This document shows, piece by piece, positions 1,676 through 20,204 of a DNA stretch of 64,000 nt. The translations under genes and the position numbers were made by a program. Origin of the DNA: Rubricoccus marinus (GTDB taxonomy: Bacteria; Bacteroidota; Rhodothermia; Rhodothermales; Rubricoccaceae); the NCBI RefSeq assembly GCF_002257665.1, contig NZ_MQWB01000001.1:1892622-1956621 (forward strand), read 5' to 3'. Each line of letters begins with the position of its first letter. The stretch's first letter is position 1. The notes beneath the pieces were generated by a model. The model saw only the letters and a program-made list of their open reading frames with translations. It was not told where the DNA came from and did no database searches.

Positions 1676-1719
1676 GGGGTGGGGTTGTGAGGTGTGGCCT
1701 CAATACCTGTTACAACAAC

Positions 1720-4647: not shown

Positions 4648-4697
4648 GGGCGATTCGGAATCGAGGGATGCAGTCCTGACCTCTGGCGTTCAGAGCG

Positions 4698-4715: not shown

Positions 4716-4734
4716 GCGCCCTGGCCTCCCGTAG

Positions 4735-7032: not shown

Positions 7033-7050
7033 GCCTCTGGCGCCAGAGGC
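7033..7050. repeat. Motif palindrome, type A, abutting a TGA stop
   Basis: The palindrome begins directly after the TGA stop codon of the ABC1 kinase gene (7030-7032) and lies between it and the convergent integrase gene. Confidence 0.95.
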
Positions 7051-7077
7051 CAAGACGCCTGAGGCGCGCGTGGGCGC

Positions 7078-8055
7078 TCAGGCCAGGGCGTCCAGCGGGC
7101 TACGGATGCCGCGGCCGTTGAGGTCGGCGACGTGGAGGTAGATCTGCGTCGTCTTGATCTTCGCGTGGCCCAGGAGATCCTGAACGGTTCGGATATCGGT
7201 CCCGGATTCGAGTAGGTGCGTCGCGAACGAGTGCCGAAGCGTGTGGCACGTCGTGCGCTTTTCGAGGCCGGCCTCGCGGGCCGCACGGCGCACGGCCTTT
7301 TGCACGACGGAGGGCGAGAGATGGTGGCGATGCGTGCGGCCGGTCTCTGGATCGCGTGAGAGTTGCCGGGAGGGAAAGAGAAACTGCCATCCGATCTCCC
7401 AGGCGGCGCGGCTGTACTTGGCGCCTAGGGCGTGTGGGAGGCGGGCTTCGCCGTAGCCTCTGGCGAGATCGCGCGCGTGGAGGCGTCGGACGCGGTCGCG
7501 CTGGAACGCGAGCGCCTCGGTAAGAGAAAGGGGCACGATGCTCACGCGGTCCTTTCGCCCTTTGCCTTGCTGCACGGTGAGCTGATTCCGCTCCAGGTCC
7601 AGATCCTTCACCCGAAGCCGGAGGGCACCTCGGAGGCGTAGCCCCGCTCCGTACAGGAGGGAAGCGACGGTCTTGGGCGTTCCCTCCATGCGATGCAGCA
7701 GGGCAGAGATGTCCGTCTTGCTCAGCACGGTCGGGATGCGCGGGGGCTTTGTCGCGCGGACGATGCCGTTGACGGCGTCGAGCGGGCGGCCCAGCACGGC
7801 ATCGTACAGGAACAGGAGCGCCGACAGCGCCAGGACCTGTGTGCTGGCCGCGATGTTGCGCTCCACGGCGAGGTGCGTGAGAAATGCCTGCACCTCGGGC
7901 TCTGACATCTCACGCGGGTGGTGCGTGCCGTGATAGCGGATGTAGCGCTTGATCCAGTACCAATAGGTGGTGAGCGTGGCAGCACTCAGGTGCCGCACGA
8001 GTGCGGCTGTGCGGACCCGCTCTTGAAGCTTCGGGGACGTCTGCGCTGGGTTCAT
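7078..8055 (-). CDS. intI: Integron integrase (tyrosine recombinase, IntI family)
   Basis: This is a tyrosine recombinase that integrates gene cassettes by attI x attC recombination. The N-terminal core-binding domain shows TLTTYWYWIKRYIRYHG. The catalytic set is visible as the arginine in LLYGAGLR, the lysine in QQGKGRKDR, HTLRHSFATHLL (H-x-x-R), LLGHAKIKTTQIY with the second histidine and the nucleophilic tyrosine. The IntI-specific insertion is present between the lysine and H-x-x-R: KYSRAAWEIGWQFLFPS and THRHHLSP. I chose the ATG at 8055 (325 residues); a GTG at 8091 would add 12 residues and give 337. It is transcribed away from its cassettes, as in all integrons. It holds a resident motif copy at 7455, so it is not a recent arrival. 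Confidence 0.95.
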   Translation of the reverse strand: MNPAQTSPKLQERVRTAALVRHLSAATLTTYWYWIKRYIRYHGTHHPREMSEPEVQAFLTHLAVERNIAASTQVLALSALLFLYDAVLGRPLDAVNGIVRATKPPRIPTVLSKTDISALLHRMEGTPKTVASLLYGAGLRLRGALRLRVKDLDLERNQLTVQQGKGRKDRVSIVPLSLTEALAFQRDRVRRLHARDLARGYGEARLPHALGAKYSRAAWEIGWQFLFPSRQLSRDPETGRTHRHHLSPSVVQKAVRRAAREAGLEKRTTCHTLRHSFATHLLESGTDIRTVQDLLGHAKIKTTQIYLHVADLNGRGIRSPLDALA

Positions 8056-8138
8056 AGGGACGCCAGAGGCCAAACTTGCCCGTGTAGACACGCTTTTGCA
8101 TCGTTCGTAACATGGACGCTTTACGGATGTTCTGACGC

Positions 8139-8232
8139 ATGAAGTGCGGAAACCGTCGCTTCATACCGCCCAGCTTCCGCTTTTTGTCCCGATTCCGGAC
8201 TTCATCCGGCACTCAGTGCCGCTGAAGTACTA
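8139..8232. promoter_or_regulatory. Probable attI recombination region
   Basis: This stretch lies between the integrase gene and the first cassette junction, where attI and the cassette promoter are expected. It contains two inverted repeats. ATGAAG (8139-8144) pairs with CTTCAT (8159-8164). ACTTCA (8199-8204) and GGCAC pair with GTGCC and TGAAGT (to 8228), ending 4 bases before the crossover. The crossover is the GTTAGCT at 8233-8239, which matches the inverse core AGCTAAC at 8849. Assigning attI to this interval is inference from position. Confidence 0.7.
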
Positions 8233-8260
8233 GTTAGCTGGCACTCCCACCCTGCAATCT

Positions 8261-8839
8261 GTGAACTGGGCTACTGAACTCGCTAGTCTCCACGTGCCGG
8301 GGGATGGCACCTCACGGGTCTTCGGAATCGTCTTGTATACGAGGGAGCACGCTAACATCAAGCGGCTGCTCGACGACGAGGACTACTGGGCTTCGCTTGA
8401 CGAAGTGTCCGGTCCACTCTGGCACGTTCTAGCCGTAAGGGCTCAGCCTGGCCGATATACGTTTCCGAGATCGCGGCCTGGGCAGATCAGCATGATGGTC
8501 CAGGTATGGAGAGAACCCAATGCGAACAAGCAATTGCTCAGTGATTTCGGCCTCCGCTCCACTGAACAGCTTCCGTGCTTGGCTGTCTTCACACGCTTAG
8601 AATCGGGAGACTTAGCCACGACATCCATCCGGCTCAGCGACGCAAGCATCGAGGCGGCTTACAAATCGCTGAAAGATGCAATAGCCGTCGTCTCAGGCGC
8701 CCTAAGCAAGGTTCATGATGAGTATGTCCTAGAAGAAGGGGCGTATCGAGCGGTTGAAGCAGCTGTGTTGAATCACAACCAATGGCGTAAGCTCAGCGCG
8801 GCTGGGAGACTGATAGAGCGTTTCTTAAATGCCTCCTAA
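8261..8839 (+). CDS. Integron cassette 1: protein of unknown function
   Basis: A 192-residue soluble protein starting at a GTG 28 bases after the cassette boundary, with its stop 9 bases before the attC. I do not recognise a family. It has a mixed alpha/beta look, with strands such as VFGIVLYTR and LPCLAVFTRLESG, a conserved-looking segment YTFPRSRPGQISMMVQ, and a helical C-terminus. There is no signal peptide or membrane segment. Base composition is visibly lower in GC than its neighbours and the gene has no motif copy, both fitting recent acquisition. Confidence 0.75.
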   Translation: MNWATELASLHVPGDGTSRVFGIVLYTREHANIKRLLDDEDYWASLDEVSGPLWHVLAVRAQPGRYTFPRSRPGQISMMVQVWREPNANKQLLSDFGLRSTEQLPCLAVFTRLESGDLATTSIRLSDASIEAAYKSLKDAIAVVSGALSKVHDEYVLEEGAYRAVEAAVLNHNQWRKLSAAGRLIERFLNAS

Positions 8840-8848
8840 ACCCGTGCC

Positions 8849-8977
8849 AGCTAACCCGCCGCTGCAAGCCGACGAAGGGCGTCAGCGCTCTCGGCTCGCC
8901 CGAACGTCGGCGCTACTTTTGCCTCGTTCGATCATCCTGCCCTCAGCCCTTCGCGGTTGAGCGGCCATCTGTTCTAC
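8849..8977 (+). other. attC site of cassette 1
   Basis: The inverse core AGCTAAC (8849-8855) belongs to cassette 1 and matches GTTAGCT at 8233. The inner arm CCGCTGCAA (8859-8867) pairs with TTGAGCGG (8957-8964) leaving one unpaired base, as is characteristic of attC. An inner stem pairs CGACGAAGGGC with GCCCTTCG. The core GTTCTAC (8971-8977) begins cassette 2. Confidence 0.9.
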
Positions 8978-8984
8978 GGCCCTC

Positions 8985-9452
8985 GTGCTCAAGCGATCCG
9001 CCTTCCTCATCGTCGTCTTGCTGGCGGCAGGATGCGACTCCTCCAACCTCCTCGCTGCGAGTGGAGACAATGGGCACGTCACCGGGGACGTGACGAGGTG
9101 GGCGGGTGAGTCTCGCGTTGGCGCTCCAGTCCCAAACGTGACCGTTCAACTCCGCCCTCGCTACCGAGGTGGCCTGCTCCAGCGCTTCCGTTGGCAAGCC
9201 GGTAGCCCGGTCGCCGAGACTACCACGGACTCACTCGGGCGGTTCGAGGTGCGTGCTCGTCCGGGGACCTACTTCGTCGCTGCGCTGATGCCGCCCGAGA
9301 GGTATCTGATGCAGGGGTGCCCCACGGTAACGCGCGTCTTCAGCGGACGGTTTGAGACGGACGCCAAACTGGTGGACCTCGCGGCCGTCCGAGTCAGTCG
9401 AGGCCGAACGGCGGAGCAACAACTCAAGGTGGCGGTTGTCTGCCCTCATTAG
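8985..9452 (+). CDS. Integron cassette 2: predicted lipoprotein with carboxypeptidase-regulatory-like fold
   Basis: A 155-residue protein from a GTG 14 bases inside the cassette. The N-terminus MLKRSAFLIVVLLAAGCDSS is a lipoprotein signal with lipobox LAAGC, so the mature protein should be anchored to a membrane. The remainder resembles a small CarboxypepD-reg or CnaB-like beta-sandwich: GAPVPNVTVQLRPR, then TTTDSLGRFEVRARPGTYFVAAL. Such folds occur in surface proteins and give no enzymatic clue. Two further cysteines (GCPTV and VVCPH) could form a disulfide. It has no motif copy. Confidence 0.8.
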   Translation: MLKRSAFLIVVLLAAGCDSSNLLAASGDNGHVTGDVTRWAGESRVGAPVPNVTVQLRPRYRGGLLQRFRWQAGSPVAETTTDSLGRFEVRARPGTYFVAALMPPERYLMQGCPTVTRVFSGRFETDAKLVDLAAVRVSRGRTAEQQLKVAVVCPH

Positions 9453-9462
9453 ACACCGGGCC

Positions 9463-9587
9463 GTAGAACCCGGCGCTGCAGTCCGACAGCACGCCGTGCC
9501 GCGTTCGGCCTCTGGCGCCAGAGGCGTATTCTGGGGCTCGTCTGATCTGCTCGGCGCGTGCTGCGTCTGAGCGCCCATCCGTTATGC
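9463..9587 (+). other. attC site of cassette 2, with motif palindrome in its loop
   Basis: GTAGAAC (9463-9469) matches the start of cassette 2, GTTCTAC at 8971. GGCGCTGCAG (9472-9481) pairs with CTGAGCGCC (9567-9575) with one extra base. The stem continues with GACAGCACGCCG against CGGCGCGTGCTG. The variable loop contains the 18-base motif palindrome (9508-9525). The site ends in GTTATGC (9581-9587), the start of cassette 3. Confidence 0.9.
9508..9525. repeat. Motif palindrome, type A, inside attC
   Basis: A perfect palindrome in the loop region of the cassette 2 attC, in a stretch otherwise free of the motif between about 8.08 and 10.67 kb. Confidence 0.95.
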
Positions 9588-9603
9588 AGCCTAACACTTC
9601 CTC

Positions 9604-10083
9604 GTGATCCCAGACTTTGAGAGCAAGATCGAAGCGCTCTGTTACCACGAGGCTGGTCACTTCGTGCTCTGTTTGCTTTTCGGCTTTAATGTTAAGCGTG
9701 TGGTGCTCAGCGCTGAGATGACAGGGGTTGAGCACGACTACTCGCTGCCAAATTCAGACGATTCGTCTGTCGGCGACTACATCACCATGTCTATTGGCGG
9801 CGGTATCGCGGAGGAGATATTCACCGGCGACGAGTCGCTCGCTATGGATGAGGACCGACGCCAGGTGCTCTACGTCGCGAGGCATCTCCGACCTCACCTA
9901 GTGGCGACGATTGAAGATTGGAGAGCGAGCCTGTTAACCTGGAAGGATGAGGCGCGGCGCGAGCTGAGCAAGACGCAGGTTTGGGCGGCGGTTGAGTACG
10001 TCGCTCAGCAGCTTGGGGAAATTGAGCCACCATCGGAAATTGTTGGGAGTGACCTCTCAGGGTTGGTTGAATCCACAAACTAA
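9604..10083 (+). CDS. Integron cassette 3: stand-alone M41 (FtsH-like) metalloprotease domain
   Basis: A 159-residue protein from a GTG. The segment IEALCYHEAGHFVLCLLFGF carries the HExxH zinc motif in the FtsH context (HEAGH). GGGIAEEIFTGDES corresponds to the FtsH G-G-x-A-E-E segment. SLAMDEDRRQVLYVAR matches the N-D-x-x-x-A-T-x-x-A-R region that gives the third zinc ligand. There is no AAA ATPase domain and no transmembrane segment, so it is only the protease half. Related stand-alone M41-like proteins exist, but their substrates are not known to me. A role in protein turnover or toxin activation is speculation. Confidence 0.82.
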   Translation: MIPDFESKIEALCYHEAGHFVLCLLFGFNVKRVVLSAEMTGVEHDYSLPNSDDSSVGDYITMSIGGGIAEEIFTGDESLAMDEDRRQVLYVARHLRPHLVATIEDWRASLLTWKDEARRELSKTQVWAAVEYVAQQLGEIEPPSEIVGSDLSGLVESTN

Positions 10084-10095
10084 ATACTTCGGGCT

Positions 10096-10231
10096 GCATA
10101 ACCCGCCGCTGCAAGCCGACGAAGGGCATCAGCGTTCTCGGCTCGCCCGAACGTCGGCGCTACTTTTGCCTCGTTCGATCATCCTGCCCTCAGCCCTCAG
10201 CCCTTCGCGGTTGAGCGGCCCCCTGTTACAC
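10096..10231 (+). other. attC site of cassette 3
   Basis: GCATAAC (10096-10102) matches GTTATGC at 9581. CCGCTGCAA (10106-10114) pairs with TTGAGCGG (10211-10218). The site is nearly identical to the attC of cassette 1, differing by a few bases and a 7-base tandem duplication (CAGCCCT) near 10190-10203. It ends in GTTACAC (10225-10231), the start of cassette 4. Confidence 0.9.
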
Positions 10232-10235
10232 GGCC

Positions 10236-10631
10236 TTGGAGCTACTCGCCTTCGTCCCCGCTGCCTTCATCCTGTTCTGCTTCGTGTTTGCGGAGTTGAC
10301 CGAGAAGGTTACGATTCGGAAGCGTCTCTTCATCCTCGCGGTTCTGATAGCGGCTTCTGGCGCCGCAGCTTCGGTTTTACTCAGCACAGCGGTCCCGCTT
10401 CTCGCGTCGTTGGCACCTCTCGCCTTCCTCCTCTGGCAACGCGTACTGTCGTCGGTGTTCGCATCATGGAAGGGTGCACCGCTCGTCATCACGGGAGCTG
10501 GTACGAGAATCTGGACGTGGTACGATGTGGCTTATACCATCCTCCTCGCTATCAGCAGTGGCGGCCTCGGCGCACTCTCACTCGTTGCGCTTAGCAGTCT
10601 TAACTCAGCCCCCGCGCCAGTGGCCGTGTAA
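10236..10631 (+). CDS. Integron cassette 4: small membrane protein of unknown function
   Basis: A 131-residue hydrophobic protein, starting at a TTG right after the cassette boundary. Four likely membrane segments are LAFVPAAFILFCFVFAEL, LFILAVLIAASGAAASVLL, VPLLASLAPLAFLLWQ and AYTILLAISSGGLGALSLVA. The TAA stop (10629-10631) lies inside the inverse core of its attC, so the cassette has no 3' spacer. No family is recognised. The start codon is uncertain. Confidence 0.65.
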   Translation: MELLAFVPAAFILFCFVFAELTEKVTIRKRLFILAVLIAASGAAASVLLSTAVPLLASLAPLAFLLWQRVLSSVFASWKGAPLVITGAGTRIWTWYDVAYTILLAISSGGLGALSLVALSSLNSAPAPVAV

Positions 10632-10688
10632 CCCGGCGCTGCAGCCGACAGCCCGCCGTGCCGCGTTCGGCCTCTGGCGCCAGAGGCC
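10626..10688 (+). other. Truncated attC of cassette 4 (left half only)
   Basis: GTGTAAC (10626-10632) matches GTTACAC at 10225, and GGCGCTGCAG (10635-10644) is an intact inner arm. The sequence then follows the left half of attC 2 almost base for base up to the motif palindrome at 10670. Beyond the palindrome there is no right arm and no core; the terminator of the next gene starts at once. The array therefore ends in a half site. Confidence 0.85.
10670..10687. repeat. Motif palindrome, type A, at the broken end of the integron array
   Basis: Including flanking bases this is a perfect 20-base palindrome (10669-10688). It marks the exact point where similarity to attC 2 stops. Confidence 0.95.
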
Positions 10689-10722
10689 ACAAAAAACGCC
10701 CCCCGGCTAGAGCCGAGGGGCG
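10689..10722 (-). terminator. Intrinsic terminator of the small acidic lipoprotein gene
   Basis: On the minus strand a 12-base GC-rich stem (10711-10722 with 10697-10708, one mismatch) has a 2-base loop and is followed by six T residues. Confidence 0.85.
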
Positions 10723-10747
10723 CGAGTCTCACGTGAGACCTGTCGAT

Positions 10748-10984
10748 TTAGTCGACGATCGGGTCCTCTTCGAGGATCGTGTCGTCAGCCTCGCCGGGCT
10801 CCATTTCGCCGGGCTCATCGATGATCTCACCGTCGCCGATGACATCCTCTTGGTCGCCGATGGGGGCGCCCTCCTCGTAGGCCTCTTCTTCGGCCTCGGT
10901 CACGGGGGGGGTGGCGGTCTCCTCACATGCGGTGAGGGGGAGGGTCATGCCGAGCGCGAACAGCGCGATGAAAAACTTCTTCAT
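10748..10984 (-). CDS. Small acidic lipoprotein
   Basis: The start is the ATG that gives MKKFFIALFALGMTLPLTAC, a lipoprotein signal ending in a cysteine. The 78-residue product is then almost entirely acidic and low in complexity (EAEEEAYEEGAP, DDTILEEDPIVD). No family is recognised. Acidic short lipoproteins are common in this group, including halophilic relatives. It has its own terminator and lies downstream of mutS on the same strand. Confidence 0.75.
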   Translation of the reverse strand: MKKFFIALFALGMTLPLTACEETATPPVTEAEEEAYEEGAPIGDQEDVIGDGEIIDEPGEMEPGEADDTILEEDPIVD

Positions 10985-11027
10985 GGGAAGAGGGGGTGTG
11001 GGTGAAGGCACGAAACTACGCACGCGC

Positions 11028-13790
11028 TCACTTCGTGCCGCTCCCCAGCAATCTTGACAATTCTGAGAGGGCGATAAGCGCCTCAATCGGCGTCATCCGG
11101 TCGGGATCCAGCCGCGCCACCTCCGCTTTCAGGGATTCCCCGACGGGGTCCGAGGCCGGCTCCACGCGCACCGAGGGCGCCGGGACGCCAGAGGCCTGGA
11201 CGCCGGAGACGACCGGCATCGCGAGCGCGCCGTCGCCGCCAGAGGCCTCTGGCGCGGTGTGGCCGCTGACGCCGACCTCGGCCGCGACGTCGTGCGCCTG
11301 CAGGTGACGGAGCACGTCCTTGGCCCGGCTGACGACCTCGGGCGGGAGTCCGGCCATGCGCGCGACCTCGATGCCGAACGAGTGGTCGGCACCGCCAGCG
11401 ACGAGCGTGCGGAGAAAGACGACGCGGCCCTCGTGCTCCTGCACGCGAACCGAAAAGCTCTTGACGCGCTCCAGCCGGTCTGCGAGCGCGTTGAGCTCGT
11501 GGTAGTGCGTCGCGAAAAGCGTGCGCGCCTGCACGTCTGGCGCTTCGTGGAGGTGCTCCACGATGCTCCACGCGATGCTGAGCCCGTCGAAGGTGCTGGT
11601 CCCCCGCCCCACTTCGTCCAGCAGGACGAGCGAGCGCGGCGTGGCGTTGTTGAGGATGTTCGCCGTCTCGTTCATCTCCACGAGGAACGTGCTCTCCCCC
11701 GCAGCGAGGTTGTCGCTGGCGCCCACGCGTGTGAACAGCGCGTCCACGACGCCCACGCGCGCGCGAGAGGCCGGTACGAACGCACCCACCTGCGCCAGGA
11801 GCACGATCAGGCCGGTCTGCCGCAGGACCACGCTCTTGCCCGCCATGTTCGGCCCGGTGATGACCAGGACCTGGCCGTACGCGTCCGCCAGAGGCGCCTC
11901 CTCCCCCACCGGCGACGCGAGCCGAACGGAGTTGGGGATGAATGATTCACCCGCGGGAAGCGACGCTTCAACGACCGGGTGACGCCCGTTCTCGATCTCC
12001 AGAACGGCGCTGCCGTCCACCTCGGGGCGGACGTATCCGTTGCGCTCGGCGCTCTCGGCGAAGCTCGCGAACACGTCCAGCGTGGCCAGGGCGCGCGCGT
12101 TGGCCTGCAGCGGTTCTACCTCTTCGGCCACGCGCATCCGGAGTTCTGCGAACAGCGTGGTCTCCAGTTCCGAACTGCGCTCCTGCGCGGTCAGGATCTT
12201 CTCCTCGTACGTCTTGAGCTCGTCTGTGATGTAGCGCTCGGCGTTGACGAGCGTCTGCTTGCGGATCCAGGCCTCTGGCGCCTTGCCCTTGTGCGCGTTC
12301 GAGACCTCGAGGTAGTAGCCGAAGACGCGGTTGTAGCCCACCTTGAGGCTCGTGATCCCGGTCGCCTTCGCCTCTCGCGCCTGCAACTCCGCGAGATAGG
12401 TTTTGCCGCCCGAAGCGATCTCGCGCAACTCGTCCAGCTCGGCGTTGAAGCCGGGGCGCACGTAGCCGCCGCTGTCCATCTTGGCCGGGGGCTCGTCCAC
12501 GAGCGTTGCCGCGATGCGGTCTCGGATGTCGGCGCAGAGGTGGAGCTTGCCGCGGATGGCCGCCAGAGGCTCGGCGCCCTCCTGTTCGAGAAGGGCTTTG
12601 ATCTCGGGGATCTGCGCGAGCGTGAGCCGGAGCGCGACGAGATCGCGCGGCGTCGCGCGGCCGGTGCAGACCTTGCCCGCGAGGCGCTCCAAATCGCCCA
12701 CGTGGCGCAGCGCCTCGCGGACCTTCCGGCGCAGCGACGGCTCTACGAACAGCGCCTCCACGGCGTCCAGCCTCTGGCGGATGCGGTCCACGTCGCACAG
12801 CGGGCGGACGAGCCACTGGCGCAAGAGGCGCCCGCCCATGGGCGTGTGCGTGGCGTCGAGCACGCCGACAAGGGAGCCATCTCGCCGGCCGTCGGCCATG
12901 CTGGCGGTGAGTTCCAAGTTGCGCTTGGTAGCGGAATCCAGCGCGAGGTGGTCTTCGGCGCGGTAGCGGCGGATGCGGTTAACGTGCGGAAGACGGCCCT
13001 TCTGCGTCTCCCCGAGGTAGTACAGGACCGCGCCCGCGGCGACCGTCCCCAGGTCGAGGTCGTCCACGCCGAAGCCTTTGAGGCTGTGCGTCTTGAAGTG
13101 CCGCAGCAACGTCTCGGTCGCGAAGTCGACGCCGAACACCCAGTCCTCTTGCGGCGTGAGCGCGGCGCCGAGGCTCGTCGCCAGCGGCTGCGCCAGAGGC
13201 CTCTGGCGCTTGTCCGCGAGAAGTTCGGCGGGCGCGATGGTCCCGAGAACGTGCGGTACGCGCTCGGCGCTCGTCTCGGCGACGTAGAACTCGCCCGTCG
13301 TGGCATCGGCAAAGGCGACGCCGGCGCGGCCTTTGTCGCGGCCCTCGCCCCAGTGCACGGCCGCGACGTACGTGGAGTGCTTGGGCGTGAGGAGCGTATC
13401 GCGGAAGCTCACGCCCGGCGTGACGACTTCGACCACGCCGCGCTTGACGATCTTGCGCGCCATCTTCGGGTCCTCCAACTGCTCGCAGACGGCGACGCGG
13501 TGCCCGGCCTGCACCAGTTTGGGCAGGTGCTGATCAATGGCGTGGTGCGGGAACCCCGCCAAAGGCGTGTCCTCGCTCGCGCCGTTGCCGCGCTTGGTCA
13601 GCGTGATGCCGAGGATGTCGGCGACGAGCACGGCGTCCTCCTCGAACGTCTCGTAGAAGTCGCCCATGCGGAAGAGGAGGATCGCGCCGGGGTTGCGGTC
13701 CTTGATCTTCCAATACTGCCGCATGAGCGGCGTCATGTTCTGGCGCCGGCGGTCTTTCTCGTTCAGGAAAAGGTCGTTCTGATCGCTCAC
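11028..13790 (-). CDS. mutS: DNA mismatch repair protein MutS
   Basis: At 920 residues this is a full-length MutS, which recognises mismatches and signals repair with MutL. The N-terminal mismatch-binding domain contains the F-x-E region in LLFRMGDFYETFEEDA. The C-terminal ATPase has Walker A ITGPNMAGKSVVLRQ near residue 645 and Walker B plus signature VLLDEVGRGTSTFDG. TLFATHYHEL follows. Nine motif copies lie within the gene, including two type B palindromes; they encode pairs such as Pro-Glu-Ala-Ser-Gly and Arg-Gln-Arg-Pro-Leu-Ala, mainly in linker regions. No mutL is in view. Confidence 0.97.
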   Translation of the reverse strand: MSDQNDLFLNEKDRRRQNMTPLMRQYWKIKDRNPGAILLFRMGDFYETFEEDAVLVADILGITLTKRGNGASEDTPLAGFPHHAIDQHLPKLVQAGHRVAVCEQLEDPKMARKIVKRGVVEVVTPGVSFRDTLLTPKHSTYVAAVHWGEGRDKGRAGVAFADATTGEFYVAETSAERVPHVLGTIAPAELLADKRQRPLAQPLATSLGAALTPQEDWVFGVDFATETLLRHFKTHSLKGFGVDDLDLGTVAAGAVLYYLGETQKGRLPHVNRIRRYRAEDHLALDSATKRNLELTASMADGRRDGSLVGVLDATHTPMGGRLLRQWLVRPLCDVDRIRQRLDAVEALFVEPSLRRKVREALRHVGDLERLAGKVCTGRATPRDLVALRLTLAQIPEIKALLEQEGAEPLAAIRGKLHLCADIRDRIAATLVDEPPAKMDSGGYVRPGFNAELDELREIASGGKTYLAELQAREAKATGITSLKVGYNRVFGYYLEVSNAHKGKAPEAWIRKQTLVNAERYITDELKTYEEKILTAQERSSELETTLFAELRMRVAEEVEPLQANARALATLDVFASFAESAERNGYVRPEVDGSAVLEIENGRHPVVEASLPAGESFIPNSVRLASPVGEEAPLADAYGQVLVITGPNMAGKSVVLRQTGLIVLLAQVGAFVPASRARVGVVDALFTRVGASDNLAAGESTFLVEMNETANILNNATPRSLVLLDEVGRGTSTFDGLSIAWSIVEHLHEAPDVQARTLFATHYHELNALADRLERVKSFSVRVQEHEGRVVFLRTLVAGGADHSFGIEVARMAGLPPEVVSRAKDVLRHLQAHDVAAEVGVSGHTAPEASGGDGALAMPVVSGVQASGVPAPSVRVEPASDPVGESLKAEVARLDPDRMTPIEALIALSELSRLLGSGTK
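11237..11254. repeat. Motif palindrome, type B (GGCC centre), inside mutS
   Basis: Two motifs back to back, read through in frame as Pro-Glu-Ala-Ser-Gly in the C-terminal linker of MutS. Confidence 0.95.
13191..13208. repeat. Motif palindrome, type B, inside mutS
   Basis: Read through in frame as Arg-Gln-Arg-Pro-Leu-Ala in the connector region of MutS. Confidence 0.95.
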
Positions 13791-13820
13791 GGGGGCTCGG
13801 TCGTTTTCTACAAACTAGAG

Positions 13821-13852
13821 CCGCCCGCTGCCAGCGATGCGGCAGCGGGCGG
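13821..13852 (-). terminator. Hairpin between sodC and mutS
   Basis: A perfect 12-base stem, CCGCCCGCTGCC (13821-13832) with its complement (13841-13852), and an 8-base loop. On the minus strand it is followed only by CTCTAGTTTG, so termination may be partial. It would separate sodC from mutS transcription. Confidence 0.65.
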
Positions 13853-13866
13853 TGTAGATCCCGTGG

Positions 13867-13884
13867 CGCCAGAGGCCTCTGGCG
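13867..13884. repeat. Motif palindrome, type B, after sodC
   Basis: Lies between the sodC stop codon and the hairpin before mutS. A further single copy (13912-13921) overlaps the sodC TAG stop. Confidence 0.95.
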
Positions 13885-13921
13885 GGATGAATCCTGAGCA
13901 GGCGCCCTGGAGCGCCAGAGG

Positions 13922-14557
13922 CTAGTTGGGTGCCGTCGCGATCTGGACCACGCCGCAGCTCACGCGGTCGCCCGCGTCGCCCGAGGGCTGGCTGGAAAGG
14001 TCGTCGGCCTTGAAGTGGATCATCATCGCGCGGTCCACGATGGAGTTCGGGCCGGAGAGCGAGATCAGCGGATCGGTAAACGAGCCTCTGGCGACGCCGC
14101 CAGTCACGCCGCCAACGGCGGAGGTGATGTTGCCGAGGTCGCCGACGTGGCGCTCGTCGCGGCTGCCCTCGCGCGAGCCGTGGGGCGCGTCGTATGGGTT
14201 GAAGTGGCCGCCAGCGGCGCCACCGAGCGTGCCGTCGTCCCCGCGGCCACAGGCGCCGTTCTCGTGGACGTGGAAGCCGTGCTCACCGAGCTCGAGACCG
14301 GTGAAGTCGTACTCCACGAGCAGGCCCTCGTCGGTTTCGGTGAACGTGACGGTCCCGGTCGCGCTGCTCTCACCGAGAGGATCCAGCCGCGCCGTCGCGT
14401 AGGTGACGCCCGTGTTGCTCACGTCGGTCTCGCCGACGCCTGGCGCGCTTGCGCCGTCGGGTCCGGTCGCGGAGTCGGGGCCGGCCTGGTTGGGATCGGC
14501 GTCGGTTCCGCACGCAGCGAGGGCGAGCGGAAGGGCAAAAAGGAGGAGTCTGCGCAT
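13922..14557 (-). CDS. sodC: Copper/zinc superoxide dismutase, lipoprotein form
   Basis: A 211-residue extracytoplasmic enzyme that dismutates superoxide. The N-terminus LLLFALPLALAACGTDAD is a lipoprotein signal with lipobox LAAC. After a low-complexity Gly/Pro/Ala linker (residues about 20-45) the SodC domain shows LGEHGFHVHENGAC with copper-binding histidines, GGHFNPYDAPHG and RHVGDLGNI for copper and zinc, IHFKADD with the last copper histidine, and GDRVSCGVV with the disulfide cysteine and guiding arginine. The TAG stop overlaps a motif copy. Confidence 0.93.
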   Translation of the reverse strand: MRRLLLFALPLALAACGTDADPNQAGPDSATGPDGASAPGVGETDVSNTGVTYATARLDPLGESSATGTVTFTETDEGLLVEYDFTGLELGEHGFHVHENGACGRGDDGTLGGAAGGHFNPYDAPHGSREGSRDERHVGDLGNITSAVGGVTGGVARGSFTDPLISLSGPNSIVDRAMMIHFKADDLSSQPSGDAGDRVSCGVVQIATAPN

Positions 14558-14625
14558 GATGTCGGAAGGTGGGTGGCCGTCTCTACGCTTCTGTTTGGGT
14601 TGCGTTCGCGCCAGAGGCGAAGTGC

Positions 14626-14991
14626 TCAGGCCTCTGGCGCCGCGTCCAGCGCCGCGCGCTCTTTGCGCGTGAGCTTGGCCACGACGAGCGCGTAGGAGTG
14701 GTCGACGAGTTCGCGGATCAGCGTGTCCGGCACGTCGTCTTGGAGCAGCACCAGGTTCCAGTGCCTGCCGTTGAGGTACGGCCCGGTCGTCACGCCGCGA
14801 AAGCGCTCACGCAGGTCGCGCCCTCGCTCGGGGTCGCACTTCAACCCGATGCCGGGCGGCAAGCGCTCCAGGTTGAGGAGGCCGAACATCTTCCCGCGCA
14901 CCTTGAACACGAGCGCGTCCGGCCCGAACGGGAGGCTCTCGGTGGCGCCACGCTTGGCGAGGCAGTAGTCGCGAAGGGTATCCAGATGCAT
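14626..14991 (-). CDS. MmcQ/YjbR family DNA-binding-like protein
   Basis: Start at the ATG giving MHLDTLRDYCLAKRGATE, 121 residues. The family signatures are CLAKRGATESLPFGPDALVFKVRGKMFGLL, shared with YjbR/CyaY-like proteins, then a KCDPERG segment and PYLNGRHWNLV with the conserved asparagine and tryptophan near a basic patch. Members have a CyaY-like fold and bind DNA in some cases; cellular function is unknown. The frame is open far upstream on this strand, but that is a shadow of the HerA-like gene. It ends in Pro-Glu-Ala encoded by a motif. Confidence 0.85.
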   Translation of the reverse strand: MHLDTLRDYCLAKRGATESLPFGPDALVFKVRGKMFGLLNLERLPPGIGLKCDPERGRDLRERFRGVTTGPYLNGRHWNLVLLQDDVPDTLIRELVDHSYALVVAKLTRKERAALDAAPEA

Positions 14992-15028
14992 GGAGAGCGT
15001 GTGCGCTCGACCAAGGTGCGCACGGGCG

Positions 15029-15046
15029 GCCTCTGGCGCCAGAGGC
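15029..15046. repeat. Motif palindrome, type A, between divergent genes
   Basis: Sits in the 156-base gap between the MmcQ-like gene (minus) and the small membrane protein gene (plus). It is therefore at two 5' ends, unlike most type A palindromes. Confidence 0.95.
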
Positions 15047-15147
15047 CCGCACCTGGAAGGCGCGCCAAGCGCGGACGCAGACGCCAGCGGCCGGAAACGC
15101 AACGGGCCCTCGCGGGTACACGCACTCCTCTCCCCCACACCCGTCCG

Positions 15148-15411
15148 ATGGCTCAGCCCAGCACCGCTACCCGCTCCCTCCTCGAAGTCACCCTCGGTTT
15201 CCTGGGCGCGATCCTGATCATCCCGCTGCTGTTCAAGACGGTAAAGGGCGTGCTCAAAACCGTTTTCCGTCTGGGCGTGACCAAGCGGCTTCTGGCGGAC
15301 GTGGCGTTCGCCGGCGTGACGGCGCTTCTCACGCGGACGGACGTGCTTGATACTCTCTTCGGGCGCAAGGGCGACAAGAGCGCGCTGCTCAAGACCGACG
15401 CCAAGCGCTAG
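15148..15411 (+). CDS. Small membrane-associated protein of unknown function
   Basis: An 87-residue protein from the ATG at 15148. A hydrophobic stretch, LLEVTLGFLGAILIIPLLF, spans residues about 11-29 and is followed by basic amphipathic sequence (KTVKGVLKTVFRLGVTKRLL). A second weaker hydrophobic stretch is ADVAFAGVTALL. I do not recognise the family. It ends 15 bases before the HerA-like ATPase gene on the same strand and is probably co-transcribed with it. Confidence 0.65.
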   Translation: MAQPSTATRSLLEVTLGFLGAILIIPLLFKTVKGVLKTVFRLGVTKRLLADVAFAGVTALLTRTDVLDTLFGRKGDKSALLKTDAKR

Positions 15412-15426
15412 GTCTACCTTGGAGCC

Positions 15427-17085
15427 ATGCAGGCTCCTGACTCCACCCGCCGCCGCCGTCTCGGCGTCCTGACCCGCGGCTCCCTCGCCGGCGGCATCGA
15501 AGCCAAGCTCGATGCCGAGCGGCCCATCGAAAGCGTCCGCGCGGGGACGTTCTGCGTCGTCGAAGGCGCTACGCTCGACTTTTTCGCGCTCATCACCGAC
15601 TTGGAGATCGACGCCGCTAACGAGGGCATTCTTCTCCACCCTCCGGGGCCGGATGATGATCTCTTGCGCCGCGTGCTCCAGTCCGCGTCCGCGACCTACG
15701 CCAAAGCGTCGCTCCGCCCGCAGCTCGTCCTCGACCGCCAGAGGCCCGACGCCGACCCGCAGACGGTTAAGACGATCCCGAGTCACTTCTCCAACGTCGG
15801 GGAGGCAACCGAGGAGGACGTGGCGCGCGTGTTCAAAAGTGAGGCGACCGATCCCAGCCGGTACTTCGAGGTCGGAGATCCCGTCGGCATGGAGGGCGTG
15901 CCCGTCTGCCTGGACCTCCAGCGGTTCGTGGAGCGCAGCAATGCCGTCTTCGGCAAGACGGGAACGGGCAAAAGCTTTCTCACGCGGCTGCTCCTGGCGG
16001 GCGCGATGAAAGCCGGCCGCGGCGTCGCGCTCGTGTTCGACATGCACGGCGAGTACGGCAGCGGCCGCCGCAACGAGGAAGGCGCCTTCGCGCCCGGTCT
16101 TGCGGACGTGTTCGGCTCCCAAGTGCAGGTGTTCACGCTGGACCCGGCCACGATGCGCCAGAGGAACCAGTCGTTCGACGCCGCCATTGAGTTGTACGCG
16201 GACCAGATCGAGCCGGCGGACATCCTCCCGCTTCAGAAAACGCTCGACCTCAACCGGACCGCCGCCGAAAGCGCCGAGTTGATGCGCAGGACGTACAAGA
16301 GCCGCTGGCTCGCCACGCTGATCGACGCCTCTGGCGAGCGGCTCAAGGAAATCGCGGACGAGATCGGCGCAAACGAGAACTCGCTTCTGGCGCTCCGACG
16401 CAAGCTCTCGCGCTTCACCCGCCACGAATTCTTCCACACCGACCGGATGGACGGGAAGGAGGACCGGATCGAGCAGATCTTCGAGGCACTGGACAAGGGA
16501 AAATCCGTCGTTCTGGACTTCGGCCGGTACCGCACGCGAGAGGTGTACTTGCTTGTAGCCAACGTTCTCGCGCGACGGCTGCGGCAGATCTACGAGGAGA
16601 AGGTCAACCGCTACGAAGCCAGCCAGAAAGCCGAGGATGAACCGCGCCAACTGCTGGTCGTCGTGGAGGAGGCGCACCACTTCCTTTCGCCAGAGGTCGC
16701 CGGTGAGACGCCGTTTGGCAAGATTGCCCGCGAGATGCGGAAGTTCTACGTCTCGCTCCTCATCGTGGACCAGCGCCCGAGCGGGATCGACGAGGAGGTG
16801 CTGAGCCAGATCGGGACCAAGTTCGTGGCGCAGCTCTCGGATGAGAAGGACATCGCCGCAGCGCTCGTGGGCACGCCGGGCGCCAGCGGCCTCCGCCAGA
16901 TCCTCGCCTCGCTGGACTCCAAGCAGCAGGTGCTCCTGCTCGGCCACGCCGTCCCCATGCCCATCACGCTCCGCACGCGGACGTGGGACATGGACCTGGC
17001 GAAAACGCTCCGCGAAGGGATGCCCGGCGGCGAGGTGGTGGGCTCGGCGCACGAGATGCAGGCCAGCCTGACGGAGTTGTTCTAG
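15427..17085 (+). CDS. HerA-like ATPase (DUF87 family)
   Basis: A 552-residue P-loop ATPase of the HerA/FtsK superfamily. An N-terminal beta-barrel-like HAS domain (residues about 10-160) precedes Walker A AVFGKTGTGKSFLTRLLL near residue 180. VFDMHGEYG is the typical HerA strand. Walker B is LLVVVEEAHHFLSPE near 415. The C-terminal segment FVAQLSDEKDIAAAL and a possible arginine finger in RTRTWDMDLA follow. Homologues act with NurA nucleases on DNA ends or as stand-alone ATPases. No nurA gene is adjacent, so the partner is unknown. Confidence 0.87.
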   Translation: MQAPDSTRRRRLGVLTRGSLAGGIEAKLDAERPIESVRAGTFCVVEGATLDFFALITDLEIDAANEGILLHPPGPDDDLLRRVLQSASATYAKASLRPQLVLDRQRPDADPQTVKTIPSHFSNVGEATEEDVARVFKSEATDPSRYFEVGDPVGMEGVPVCLDLQRFVERSNAVFGKTGTGKSFLTRLLLAGAMKAGRGVALVFDMHGEYGSGRRNEEGAFAPGLADVFGSQVQVFTLDPATMRQRNQSFDAAIELYADQIEPADILPLQKTLDLNRTAAESAELMRRTYKSRWLATLIDASGERLKEIADEIGANENSLLALRRKLSRFTRHEFFHTDRMDGKEDRIEQIFEALDKGKSVVLDFGRYRTREVYLLVANVLARRLRQIYEEKVNRYEASQKAEDEPRQLLVVVEEAHHFLSPEVAGETPFGKIAREMRKFYVSLLIVDQRPSGIDEEVLSQIGTKFVAQLSDEKDIAAALVGTPGASGLRQILASLDSKQQVLLLGHAVPMPITLRTRTWDMDLAKTLREGMPGGEVVGSAHEMQASLTELF

Positions 17086-17092
17086 CCCGACG

Positions 17093-17110
17093 CGCCAGAG
17101 GCCTCTGGCG
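17093..17110. repeat. Motif palindrome, type B, after the HerA-like gene
   Basis: Begins 7 bases after the TAG stop at 17083-17085. Confidence 0.95.
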
Positions 17111-17200
17111 GGATGTCGCGGCGTGAGAAGATCCTGTGGTTTGCCCTTGGCGCGAAGTGTGCCCGTCGCGTACTCTTGCCGTGCACATTCCGACGCTTCC

Positions 17201-17566
17201 ATGCGCGCACTCCCCGTCCTGCTTCTGGCCGTCTTCGCCTTCGGGTGCCACGAGTACTCCGTCGAGCCGGAGCCGCTTGCCCCACTTCCTTCTGAGAACC
17301 TGGACCTGATCACGCTGAAAGGCCCACGGATCGTCTCCCCGGGCGACCTGCCGACCTACCTCGCGCAGTCCCATCCGGAAGCCGTCCGCTACCGGTTCCA
17401 GATCAACAACCCCTCGCAGCCCGTCATGGGCTCGATCGACACCAACGACGACCGCCACCTCAACGCGGAAGTCCTCGCGCAGGGCTCCGTCGAGTTGGTC
17501 GCGACGGCCTACAACGCCGCTGGCGAGCGCATCGCGCAGGGACGGCACTTGGTCGAGTCGCGCTAG
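17201..17566 (+). CDS. Small lipoprotein of unknown function
   Basis: From the ATG at 17201 the product is 121 residues. MRALPVLLLAVFAFGCHEYS is a lipoprotein signal with a lipobox ending in cysteine. The mature part (SHPEAVRYRFQINNPSQPVMGSI and SVELVATAYNAAGERIAQG) looks like a single beta-sandwich. No family is recognised. Confidence 0.75.
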   Translation: MRALPVLLLAVFAFGCHEYSVEPEPLAPLPSENLDLITLKGPRIVSPGDLPTYLAQSHPEAVRYRFQINNPSQPVMGSIDTNDDRHLNAEVLAQGSVELVATAYNAAGERIAQGRHLVESR

Positions 17567-17574
17567 AGCGCCGG

Positions 17575-17592
17575 GCCTCTGGCGCCAGAGGC
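17575..17592. repeat. Motif palindrome, type A, between convergent genes
   Basis: Lies 9 bases after the lipoprotein stop codon, between that gene and the convergent uvsE gene. Confidence 0.95.
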
Positions 17593-17672
17593 CTGGATTC
17601 TGTGCTGAGGGCGCTGGCGGTATGGCCGCGCCCTCCAACGTCCTCATGTGGTCGCCTAGAGGGACGGCGGCC

Positions 17673-18614
17673 TCAGGCGTCGTCCGTGGCCTCCATCGGG
17701 ATCGGGCGGTCGGGCCGCTCGCCCGTGCCGAGGTAGCGCTTGACTTCGAGGACGGCTTTTTCCTTCTGCTTGGCCTCCAGCATCACGTCGTACGGCGCCT
17801 CTGGCGCGCCGACCCGGTCCATGAGCCGCGTTAGGCGATCGACGTCGTCCATGTCGAGGTAGTCCGCGTGCGAGACGCGCGCGCCGGGTTTTTGCGACGA
17901 GAGGTGGAGCTTGGGCGGGCGCTTGCCCCACGTAGCAACGGCGCGGTCCAGCCACTCGATCAGCTCGTCCTCCGGCATGCTCTCGCCGGGAAACACGAGG
18001 TGGTGGAACAGGTCCACGACCACCCGCAACCCGGTCCGCTCGGCGAGTTGGACGACCTCGGGAAGGCTCCACGTCGTGTCGTCGTTTTCGAGGATCAGCA
18101 TCGCGCGGGCGTCCTCGCTGAGCCTCTCCAGGTTGGCCTCGAAGCGCTCCAGCGCCGCCGGCCTGTCGCCGTAGGCGCCGCCGACGTGCAAGGTCATGGT
18201 GCCCTTGGGGTCCATCTGCTTCAGCACGCGCGCCTGGTGGTCCAGCTCTTCTACGCTGGAAGCGACGACCTCGGGCCGGGGCGAGTTGAGGACCGTGTAC
18301 TGCCCGGGGTGGCTCGTGATGCGCATCTTGTGCGTCTTGGCGAGTCGCCGGATGCTTTTGAACTTCCACGCGAAGGCCTCTTCCCAATCGAACGGGAAAA
18401 CGGGCAGCGGCCCAAACGGGATGAGATCGGACGAGATGCGGAAAAAGTGCAGGCCGCGCTCCGCGTTCCACTCAAGCGCACGCTCGATGTCTTCCAGGTT
18501 CTGCGTGATAACCGGGATGAGCGTCTCGGTGCGGACGTTGGCGAGGCGGACGGTACGGGACTTGGTGCCGAGCGTGACGTTCTGGCACGCGTAGCCGAGG
18601 TGGCGGAGGCGCAT
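17673..18614 (-). CDS. uvsE: UV damage endonuclease UvsE/UVDE
   Basis: A 313-residue enzyme that nicks DNA 5' to UV photoproducts and starts an excision pathway independent of UvrABC. It starts MRLRHLGYACQNVTLG, the family hallmark (LGY-x-CQN). Further signatures of the TIM-barrel metal site are FRISSDLIPFG, ITSHPGQYTVLNSP, LHVGGAYGD, LILENDDTTW, VVDLFHHLVFPGE and KLHLSSQ. VMLEAKQKEKAVL provides the C-terminal glutamate and lysine. Length matches the family. Confidence 0.95.
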   Translation of the reverse strand: MRLRHLGYACQNVTLGTKSRTVRLANVRTETLIPVITQNLEDIERALEWNAERGLHFFRISSDLIPFGPLPVFPFDWEEAFAWKFKSIRRLAKTHKMRITSHPGQYTVLNSPRPEVVASSVEELDHQARVLKQMDPKGTMTLHVGGAYGDRPAALERFEANLERLSEDARAMLILENDDTTWSLPEVVQLAERTGLRVVVDLFHHLVFPGESMPEDELIEWLDRAVATWGKRPPKLHLSSQKPGARVSHADYLDMDDVDRLTRLMDRVGAPEAPYDVMLEAKQKEKAVLEVKRYLGTGERPDRPIPMEATDDA

Positions 18615-18652
18615 CGAAGGGCGTTGAGAGATGGGACGTGGATACGGCCTCT

Positions 18653-18698
18653 CCGCGCCGCGGGTCCGCGCCGCGGGTCCGCGCCGCGGGTCCGCGCC
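18653..18698. repeat. 13-base tandem repeat, about 3.5 copies
   Basis: The unit CCGCGCCGCGGGT occurs at 18653, 18666 and 18679, with a partial fourth copy (18692-18698) running into the type B palindrome at 18695. It lies in the gap between uvsE and the M28 peptidase gene. Confidence 0.95.
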
Positions 18699-18712
18699 AG
18701 AGGCCTCTGGCG
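18695..18712. repeat. Motif palindrome, type B, after the M28 peptidase gene
   Basis: Starts at the end of the 13-base tandem repeat and lies 19 bases beyond the stop codon of the minus-strand peptidase gene. Confidence 0.95.
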
Positions 18713-18730
18713 CATCTACTCCGCCAGGGG

Positions 18731-20137
18731 CTACTCCCCCTGCGGCAGCCGCTGCGGCATCTCGGCGGCGACGTAGGCGAGGATCGCCATCGCGGCGACG
18801 TTCCGCTGTACGTGGCCCGCGTCGAGCTTGTCGACGGTGTCGGCCGCGGTGTGGTGGTACCAGAAATAGCGCTCGTTGGCCGTGCGGTGGCCGACGCCCG
18901 GCACGCCCTGCCGCATCAGCGGACCGATGTCGGCCCCTCCCCCGCCGCTCACGATGCCGATGGGCTGGCTGGCCTCTTGCGCCAGGACGGGCGCGAGCAG
19001 CGCCTCGATGGGTTTGAGCGTTTCGAACACCCCGGACGAGCCCGTCACGCCAAAGCCGATGGGCTCGAAGACGCCACCGTCGCTCTCGATCGCGAGTTGG
19101 GTGTTGGCGGCGCCAGAGGCCCCGACGGAGTCGGCGTAGGTCGTCGCGCCACGTAGACCGTTTTCCTCGTTCGTCCAGAGAACGACGCGGATGGTGCGGC
19201 GCGGGCGGAGGCCGAGATCGTGCAAGAGACGAACGGCTTCCCAGGCCACGACGCAACCGCCACCGTCGTCGTGCATGCCCTGCCCGACGTCCCAGGAATC
19301 GATGTGTCCCCCGATGACGACGACTTCCTGGGGCGACTCGCGGCCGCGGATCTCGCCGATCACGTTGCGCGAGAGGCGGTCGGGTGCGGTGGTCGCGCCC
19401 ATCGTGACGCGGAGGCGCGGCGCCTCGCCGCGGTCGGCCATGCGCTGGAGCATCGCCGCGGCCTCGACGGTGATGGCGGCGTGCGGGATGCGCGGCACGC
19501 CGTCTTCGTAGCTCATCGTGCCCGTATGCGGCGTGGAGAGCGAAACGGGACCGACAGAGCGGACCAGGCTCGCGACAGCGCCGACCTTCGCCGCGGCGAT
19601 GGCGCCCTGCGTGCGATACGCGACCGTCCGGCCGTAGCTGGTAAACGGCACGTTGTAGACCACGATCTTGCCCTCGGCTTCGCTCGCCCGCGCCGTGAGT
19701 TCGTCGAACGAGCCCACGACCAGCACCTCGGCCTCAACGCCCGCAGCGGTTGTGCCGACGCTCCCGCCAAGCCCAAGCATCGCCAGAGGCTCAACGCGGG
19801 GGTGCGTCATCAGGACGGACTCCTGGCCGCGGATCCACGCGGGCACCATGACGGGCTGGCCGCGCACGGATTCCAGCCCGTCAGCTCGCATCTCGTCCAA
19901 GATCCAGTCGATCGCGTCTTCGAGCGACTGGCTTCCAGAGAAGCGGTGGCCGAACGTGTCGCCCATGTACGCCGCGCGGTCGTACGCGGCCGAGTCCGCT
20001 AGTGCGGCTTCGATGATGCGCGATGCGGCCTCGCGGTACGGGTCGACGTCGAGAGGCGTCTGGGCACTCGCACCAGAGGCCAGGCCAAGCAGGAGGCCGC
20101 TGGCGAGCACGAGGGCGACACAGAAAAGGCGGGGCAT
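18731..20137 (-). CDS. Secreted M28 family zinc peptidase (carboxypeptidase Q-like)
   Basis: From the ATG at 20137 the protein has 468 residues with a signal peptide, MPRLFCVALVLASGLLLGLASGASAQ. A protease-associated-type insert lies around residues 125-260. The di-zinc site of M28 is seen in VVIGGHIDSWDVGQGMHDDG (histidine, then aspartate), TNEENGLRG (catalytic and ligand glutamates), AIESDGGVF (aspartate) and RYFWYHHTAADTVDKL (histidine). It probably cleaves small peptides outside the cytoplasm. The frame continues upstream without a plausible signal peptide, so the internal start is preferred. Confidence 0.9.
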   Translation of the reverse strand: MPRLFCVALVLASGLLLGLASGASAQTPLDVDPYREAASRIIEAALADSAAYDRAAYMGDTFGHRFSGSQSLEDAIDWILDEMRADGLESVRGQPVMVPAWIRGQESVLMTHPRVEPLAMLGLGGSVGTTAAGVEAEVLVVGSFDELTARASEAEGKIVVYNVPFTSYGRTVAYRTQGAIAAAKVGAVASLVRSVGPVSLSTPHTGTMSYEDGVPRIPHAAITVEAAAMLQRMADRGEAPRLRVTMGATTAPDRLSRNVIGEIRGRESPQEVVVIGGHIDSWDVGQGMHDDGGGCVVAWEAVRLLHDLGLRPRRTIRVVLWTNEENGLRGATTYADSVGASGAANTQLAIESDGGVFEPIGFGVTGSSGVFETLKPIEALLAPVLAQEASQPIGIVSGGGGADIGPLMRQGVPGVGHRTANERYFWYHHTAADTVDKLDAGHVQRNVAAMAILAYVAAEMPQRLPQGE

Positions 20138-20185
20138 AGATACGGAGGGATGATCCCCGAACCTACGCCCCGCCTTGGGTCTTGC

Positions 20186-20203
20186 CGCCAGAGGCCTCTG
20201 GCG
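20186..20203. repeat. Motif palindrome, type B, next to a TAA stop
   Basis: Lies one base from the stop codon of the minus-strand gene that ends at 20205, and upstream of the M28 peptidase gene. Confidence 0.95.
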
Positions 20204-20204
20204 T

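Follow-up and report, generated by a model that had tools for sequence, protein, structure and literature searches.

Positions 10748-14557 of the window, the whole 64,000-nucleotide stretch of Rubricoccus marinus DNA that was analyzed, carry mutS and a sodC-like gene. This region contains 13 perfect copies of the exact 10-mer CGCCAGAGGC, where the genome-wide control rate predicts ~0.05. Nine of these copies fall in mutS, an inverted pair occupies the gap between mutS and sodC, one copy lies at the sodC stop codon and one within sodC. The mutS gene (920 aa; 11028..13790, minus strand) was identified by gene calling, its copies were taken from the copy list, and MutS orthologs were found.

Within mutS, plus-strand copies of the word yield Ala-Ser-Gly in the C-terminal tail (aa 866; 11186..11195) and Pro-Leu-Ala at both aa 632 (11886..11895) and aa 407 (12561..12570). 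Minus-strand copies yield Pro-Glu-Ala at aa 504 (12271..12280) and Arg-Gln-Arg in a conserved stretch at aa 338 (12770..12779). At this last position the relative G004 encodes the same peptide, RQRL, with CGCCAGCGGC; a single synonymous change, CGG to AGG, lies within the word. The remaining mutS copies form inverted pairs, CGCCAGAGGCCTCTGGCG, one in the C-terminal tail (aa 846-852, APEASGG; 11237..11254) and the other at aa 195-200 (RQRPLA; 13191..13208). The same pair occupies the mutS/sodC gap (13867..13884), where it gives a 7-bp stem in the RNA fold. Of the two copies at the sodC-like gene (13922-14557), the plus-strand one (13913..13922) starts in the stop codon and the minus-strand one (14084..14093) lies inside the gene. 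Additionally, an attC-like stretch just upstream of the region holds the palindrome GCCTCTGGCGCCAGAGGC (10670..10687). Viral contigs scanned for the 18-mers gave no match.

Abundance, shape and strand balance

Across the whole window (1..64000, both strands), we counted 176 perfect copies of CGCCAGAGGC, 90 forward and 86 reverse. The 4.43 Mb genome holds 14,176 copies compared with 61 for the reversed control, a spacing of ~1 copy per 310 letters or ~3.2 per kb (3,200 per Mb). The first-pass annotation of this DNA had already reported the motif; that observation is confirmed, yet the real scale is much larger than was stated. A literature search on the letters of CGCCAGAGGC returned unrelated matches only, among the top matches listed.

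The word is non-palindromic, and a search for a flanking consensus around it found none, the constraint stopping at 10 bp. Codon and copy counts were made on 564 kb of gene-called DNA, equal to 13% of the genome. Perfect copies in this sample numbered 1,963 and singly mismatched copies 896, a ratio of 2.2. Over-representation was 124-fold with no mismatch, 4-fold with one and 0.87-fold with two.

A word this short and this frequent could be a polar chromosome signal that, like Chi or KOPS, directs recombination or segregation. Such a signal should be oriented, but CGCCAGAGGC is unbiased both overall (7,127 forward vs 7,049 reverse) and relative to local GC skew (570/541 against 404/448 in the chromosome sampled, where skew is weak). 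Its enrichment between genes and its pairing after gene ends, described below, would also be unexpected. Since strand bias is absent, we rejected Chi- or KOPS-type sites and regard a polar signal as very unlikely.

Codon usage and encoded peptides

Outside the word, TCT makes up 5.3% of Ser codons, and AGA and AGG make up 0.8% and 2.0% of Arg codons (564 kb), bearing out the claim that TCT and AGA are rare elsewhere in these genes. Inside it lie 441 of the 898 TCT codons (49%), 174 of the 265 AGA codons (66%) and 89 of the 322 AGG codons in the same DNA; about half of the TCT (Ser) and two thirds of the AGA (Arg) in the sampled genes are therefore owed to CGCCAGAGGC. The frequencies of TCT and AGA inside and outside the word were thus unequal in the 564 kb. 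That these codons are standard within the motif, as had also been claimed, is correct but holds by construction, the word being fixed; the informative figure is the number of copies observed against that expected. All five peptide readings named in the first-pass annotation occur in the 564 kb, namely Ala-Ser-Gly (441), Pro-Glu(-Ala) (305), Pro-Leu-Ala (233), Ala-Arg-Gly (174) and Arg-Gln-Arg (89), together with a sixth, Leu-Trp (32), whereas codon usage outside the word predicts ~1 or fewer of each. Rare codons within the word were the same in relatives in 2 of 73 cases and rare codons elsewhere in 7 of 198, a comparison that does not discriminate.

In genes, the word prefers frames that yield small flexible residues, as might be expected if it were the product of context-dependent mutation or of selection on codons or peptides. 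However, the word turns up in every one of the six frames and in non-coding DNA, it is missing from relatives that have the same proteins, and an exact 10-bp target exceeds known mutational contexts. We give this explanation almost no credence. The rare codons and linker peptides are instead consequences of a DNA-level process, and CGCCAGAGGC appears to be an extreme example of a DNA-level drive that leaves its imprint on both codon choice and the encoded proteins.

Placement in and between genes

The density of CGCCAGAGGC is 7.55 per kb between genes and 2.67 per kb in genes, a 2.8-fold difference, and inverted pairs occur at 1.50 and 0.13 per kb, respectively. A palindrome was found within 25 bp for 65 of 146 neighbouring gene 3' ends, compared with 7 of 112 5' ends. 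Paired copies lie just downstream of stop codons and fold well as hairpins, which is the pattern expected if the word were one half of a transcription terminator, selected to end transcripts. Against this, 944 of 1,512 copies in the first 447 kb sampled are isolated, with the nearest other copy >40 bp away, and 1,274 of the 1,963 copies in the 564 kb lie inside genes. Terminators are a highly improbable explanation for the word, and ending transcripts can be no more than a secondary role of its paired copies.

The copies had been described as sitting in linkers and tails. On average this is so: the 8 residues on each side of a copy show an amino-acid identity of 0.63 to the same-genus relative, against 0.76 elsewhere, and indel-adjoining residues, in the same comparison, amount to 2.5% near copies and 0.8% elsewhere. 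The rule is not universal, as the MutS aa 338 copy lies in a conserved stretch. The wording that the motif forces peptides into proteins is not borne out where it implies a price to the protein. We looked for an amino-acid cost on the R. marinus lineage and found no excess, with 11 polarised changes at motif codons vs 10 on the relative's lineage. The word is better described as settling where its peptides are tolerated.

Relatives and a second word

In ortholog alignments to the same-genus relative (G001), 76 of 88 CGCCAGAGGC copies aligned free of gaps and none was intact there; only 4 of the 88 lay wholly within an alignment gap. Thus, the copies arose by substitution in place and not by insertion. 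Inverted pairs and copies inside open reading frames do resemble mobile or inserted repeats of the REP, MITE or Rickettsia-palindromic-element type, which copy themselves into genes and gaps. Because the alignments are gap-free and conservation ends at 10 bp with no longer conserved body, we rejected an insertion element and consider a mobile repeat extremely unlikely.

CGCCAGAGGC is absent from ~300 other genomes of the phylum. A second word, CCGCCAGC, is dense in G001 (8,020 copies vs 1,599 for the control) and in G007 (7,454 vs 2,023), is enriched between genes in both, and has the core CGCCAG in common with CGCCAGAGGC. Within the family, three genomes carry a dense word, in two dialects, and six carry none. 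Positional conversion of CCGCCAGC into CGCCAGAGGC was considered and rejected: CCGCCAGC was found within 4 bp at 4 of 76 aligned sites, and the reverse comparison gave 4 of 102, indicating that the two sets of sites are mostly independent.

The first-pass annotation had suggested selection or conversion at the DNA level. The involvement of all six frames, the equal strands, the presence of the word in and between genes, its 10-bp limit and its gain by in-place substitution uphold that suggestion.

Foreign-looking DNA and competence genes

The few foreign-looking stretches sampled carry few copies of the word. A defence/IS110/split-umuC island (L095) has 15 copies vs 71 expected, loci on contig C11 have 2 in ~10 kb, and cassettes have 2 in 2.4 kb. 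This scarcity fits either an uptake word or a HIP1-like site, both discussed below. The idea that atypical genes lack CGCCAGAGGC was unsupported across all genes: copies are fewest in the most codon-typical genes, and the least typical decile lies close to the average.

The R. marinus genome encodes ComEC (above the NCBIfam cut-off), a ComEA helix-hairpin-helix domain and DprA, and its chromosome carries a PilB/PilC-like pair. Competence genes are also found in family members without a dense word, so gene presence does not explain the word. Although a dense word is present in G001, its assembly (91% complete, 300 contigs) lacks the family's PilB-like ATPase. Canonical pilin N-methylation motifs were found only on contig C11 of the R. 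marinus genome and in G003, and a search for a sequence-specific receptor or ComP-type minor pilin identified none. The literature searched held no uptake or competence experiment and no report of natural transformation for Rhodothermales.

Discussion

We propose, at about an even chance of being right, that CGCCAGAGGC is an uptake-sequence-like word of R. marinus maintained by transformation drive. Competent cells would bind and import free DNA bearing the word more readily, and recombination of the imported fragments into the chromosome would copy it over near-matching homologous sites. By such molecular drive the word would pile up wherever protein function permits, and the rare codons and the ASG, PEA, PLA, ARG and RQR peptides would be carried along with it. 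If receptor specificity changed, the lineage would then move to a new dialect. In favour of this reading are the abundance of the word, its exact 10-bp extent, its gain in place, its concentration where change is tolerated, the hairpins after gene ends, the second word with a common core, and the presence of ComEC, ComEA and DprA. If true, this reading points to natural transformation in Rhodothermales. Besides the findings above on competence genes, PilB, pilins, the receptor and the literature, two observations count against it: the density of CGCCAGAGGC is above what uptake of kilobase fragments needs, and over-representation drops with mismatches more abruptly than reported for DUS and USS.

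Alternatively, CGCCAGAGGC could benefit the cell from within, as a site for a DNA-modifying or chromosome-maintenance protein involved in methylase-guided repair or nucleoid organisation. The precedent is HIP1, a word linked to methylases and found at 300-2,700 per Mb (PMC4390886); the 3,200 per Mb of CGCCAGAGGC is like or above this density, and a role of CGCCAGAGGC in uptake is itself putative. HIP1 differs in being a palindrome, GCGATCGC, that contains methylase targets and is the same throughout the cyanobacteria having it, whereas CGCCAGAGGC is non-palindromic and the word differs between genomes of one genus. We consider a HIP1-like role unlikely, though far from negligible.

An uptake-sequence-like word invites comparison with the DUS of Neisseriaceae (PMC3630211, PMC2397512). 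Both are non-palindromic words of ~10 bp with thousands of copies, enriched between genes, and both show stronger divergence around the copies and inverted pairs by gene ends, Neisseria DUS pairs likewise lying at gene 3' ends (PMC2397512, PMC3630211). The scarcity of DUS in foreign DNA may have a parallel in the few foreign-looking stretches sampled here. Similar to DUS dialects, related species have different words with a common core. In contrast, R. marinus belongs to another phylum, and its putative uptake word has another sequence and ~14,000 copies, and forms inverted pairs that overlap by 2 bp, while those of Neisseriaceae are mostly non-overlapping.

The USS of Pasteurellaceae (PMC1939737, PMC12616744) are also gained by point substitution, and in H. 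influenzae perfect copies outnumber singly mismatched ones 1.9-fold (1,471 vs 764; PMC1939737), similar to the ratio of 2.2 in R. marinus. The R. marinus word is unrelated in sequence, is without an extended flanking consensus and has a sharper mismatch fall-off. Over-representation of USS declines gradually to a mismatch load of 6 (PMC1939737), a reported property and not a definition, whereas CGCCAGAGGC is already at 0.87 with two mismatches.

According to a 2025 paper, Neisseriaceae and Pasteurellaceae are the only groups known to use a short word for recognising self-DNA during uptake (PMC12616744). It is possible, at somewhat less than an even chance, that R. marinus represents a third independent evolution of a self-DNA uptake word and the first outside those two families, with a density above the compared systems and with dialects, CCGCCAGC and CGCCAGAGGC, within one genus. 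If so, the origin, spread and switching of uptake words would become comparable across independent cases.

Abundance and anatomy of the motif

The most frequent 10-mer of the window is CGCCAGAGGC (reverse, GCCTCTGGCG), which occurs in 176 copies, 13 of them within 10748-14557. Genome-wide (4.43 Mb), we counted 7,127 forward and 7,049 reverse copies of this word, compared to 37 and 24 for a reversed-word control. None of the bases flanking the 10 positions is conserved, and there is no strand bias, either overall or relative to local GC skew. An order-4 background model, trained after masking the motif, gave observed/expected ratios of 124, 4.0 and 0.87 at 0, 1 and 2 mismatches, respectively, with 1,963 exact copies versus 896 carrying a single mismatch in 564 kb of gene-called DNA. 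Variation is tolerated chiefly at three positions of the word: 10, 7 (A replaced by C) and 4 (C replaced by A).

Motif density is 7.55 per kb in intergenic DNA versus 2.67 per kb within genes. Overlapping inverted pairs take two forms, GCCTCTGGCGCCAGAGGC and CGCCAGAGGCCTCTGGCG, which are 12 times denser in intergenic DNA than in genes. A gene 3' end is found no more than 25 bp from such a pair in 65 cases, versus 7 for the 5' end. Folded as RNA, both forms give hairpins of 7 to 8 bp.

Codon usage and position in proteins

The first-pass annotation held that the motif places rare codons (TCT, AGA and AGG) and fixed tripeptides in the proteins around mutS (11028..13790, minus strand). We analyzed codon usage in genes called across 564 kb, made up of the window and 25 segments of contig C1, each 20 kb long. 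Outside the motif, TCT accounts for 5.3% of 8,601 Ser codons, and AGA and AGG for 0.8% and 2.0% of 11,585 Arg codons. Motif copies contributed 441 of 898 TCT, 174 of 265 AGA and 89 of 322 AGG codons, as well as 233/838 CCT and 305/885 CCA. The frequencies of TCT and AGA inside and outside the motif are thus unequal, contrary to the result that would have refuted the claim. Uniform codons within a fixed word are trivial; the excess over codon-usage expectation is not, as outside usage predicts approximately one copy or fewer per reading frame of the word and 32 to 441 were observed.

Amino-acid identity to a same-genus relative was lowest at motif codons (0.50), intermediate in the eight residues on either side (0.63) and highest elsewhere (0.76), and residues flanking motif codons adjoin indels three times as often. 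Thus, the further claim that copies sit in linkers and tails is correct on average. In MutS, three copies fall in the variable C-terminal tail and two more, overlapping as a pair, in a variable region around aa 195, but the copy at aa 338 departs from this pattern and lies in a conserved stretch. There, another relative (G004) has the same RQRL encoded by CGCCAGCGGCTC, which differs from the word by one synonymous base. MutS relatives at 56-63% identity come from Rhodothermales and related Bacteroidetes assemblies, including Longimonas halophila, which makes a host from that order most probable.

Origin of the copies

We examined 88 motif copies in 48 ortholog alignments between R. marinus and the same-genus genome G001, whose MutS is 84% identical. 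Seventy-six copies align gap-free, four lie wholly in gaps and eight are partly gapped or split. None of the 88 is intact at the orthologous G001 site, nor is any aligned copy intact in three other relatives (0/38 in G007, 0/19 in G006, 0/25 in G004). Since most copies align without gaps and none is intact in relatives, they would most simply have been gained on the R. marinus lineage through substitution at pre-existing sites. A three-way comparison revealed no excess of amino-acid change at motif codons on this lineage (11 vs 10), and a protein cost of the motif is therefore not supported.

Motif copies in foreign-looking and mobile DNA

A 20-kb stretch of contig C1 (1220001-1240000) contains 15 motif copies versus 71 expected at equal G+C. 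It encodes an MmeI-type restriction-modification protein, a DUF3800 protein, a UmuD-like peptidase and an IS110-family transposase, the last located between two parts of a split umuC-like gene. On contig C11, loci that carry a transposase-like gene together with a second GspE-like ATPase hold 2 copies in ~10 kb, versus 11 to 16 copies in 3-4 kb at each of the chromosomal PilB, ComEC, ComEA and DprA loci. This foreign-DNA sample is small, and contig C11 may represent a stray contig or a replicon separate from the chromosome. Comparing codon typicality with motif count across all genes did not reproduce the scarcity trend of the foreign stretches.

The nearly motif-free C11 cluster resembles a second type II secretion/type IV pilus system and adjoins the transposase-like gene. 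The presence of more T2SSE-family ATPases on contigs C14 and C15 suggests conjugative plasmids; a similar ATPase in G007 is TrbB. Within the window, a complete integron integrase (7078-8055, minus strand; TIGR02249, 407 bits) is followed by an array (8262-10631) in which the gene cassettes are small and of lower GC and attC-like repeats occur. An attC-like 99-bp pair at 8852 and 10099 is 98% identical, and the palindromic form of the motif occurs inside two attC-like stretches. The window's longest motif-free stretch (~4.2 kb) falls in the gene for a 1635-aa protein with internal repeats (50751-55658).

DNA-import machinery

Homologs of ComEC, ComEA and DprA are present in 9/9 genomes of the family, and R. 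marinus ComEC exceeds the NCBI ComEC/Rec2 cut-off. The comEC gene (L249, 706-3243) contains 15 motif copies in 2.5 kb, approximately twice the coding average. On the R. marinus chromosome a PilB/GspE-like ATPase adjoins a PilC-like protein; this ATPase is kept across the family except in the G001 assembly, where it was not found. Canonical pilin signatures are nearly absent. A DNA import and recombination pathway is thus plausible, its outer-membrane step being putative; no receptor was found.

Related words and comparison with known systems

Neither the 60 relatives searched nor 296 genomes sampled from the phylum contain CGCCAGAGGC beyond trace level. A second word, CCGCCAGC, is present in 8,020 copies in G001 (control, 1,599) and 7,454 copies in G007, from another genus of the family (control, 2,023); a comparable excess is absent from the other searched members of the order. 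It is also denser in intergenic DNA (3.4-3.5 versus 2.0 per kb in genes) and occurs as inverted pairs. The two words have CGCCAG in common, and their sites mostly do not coincide.

The main rival explanation is a word like HIP1, the highly iterated palindrome of cyanobacteria, maintained by a protein that modifies DNA or acts on the chromosome. In density, CGCCAGAGGC does resemble HIP1, but HIP1 is a palindrome and identical across the cyanobacteria that have it (PMC4390886). The combined features of CGCCAGAGGC are best fitted by uptake-sequence drive, in which DNA carrying the word would be taken up preferentially and recombination would then copy it to any site where function allows. We file CGCCAGAGGC as acting like an uptake sequence and as a putative member of that class. 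One point that holds this reading back is the abrupt drop in over-representation with mismatches, which differs from published uptake sequences. Each anatomical feature has a counterpart in published work on DNA uptake sequences (DUS) and uptake signal sequences (USS). Perfect copies outnumber mismatched ones in H. influenzae as they do here (1,471 vs 764; PMC1939737), and Neisseria DUS form inverted pairs near terminators, are missing from recent genes and have more divergent flanks (PMC2397512, PMC3630211). Similarly, CGCCAGAGGC and CCGCCAGC resemble the Neisseriaceae 'dialects', related words that differ among close relatives (PMC3630211).
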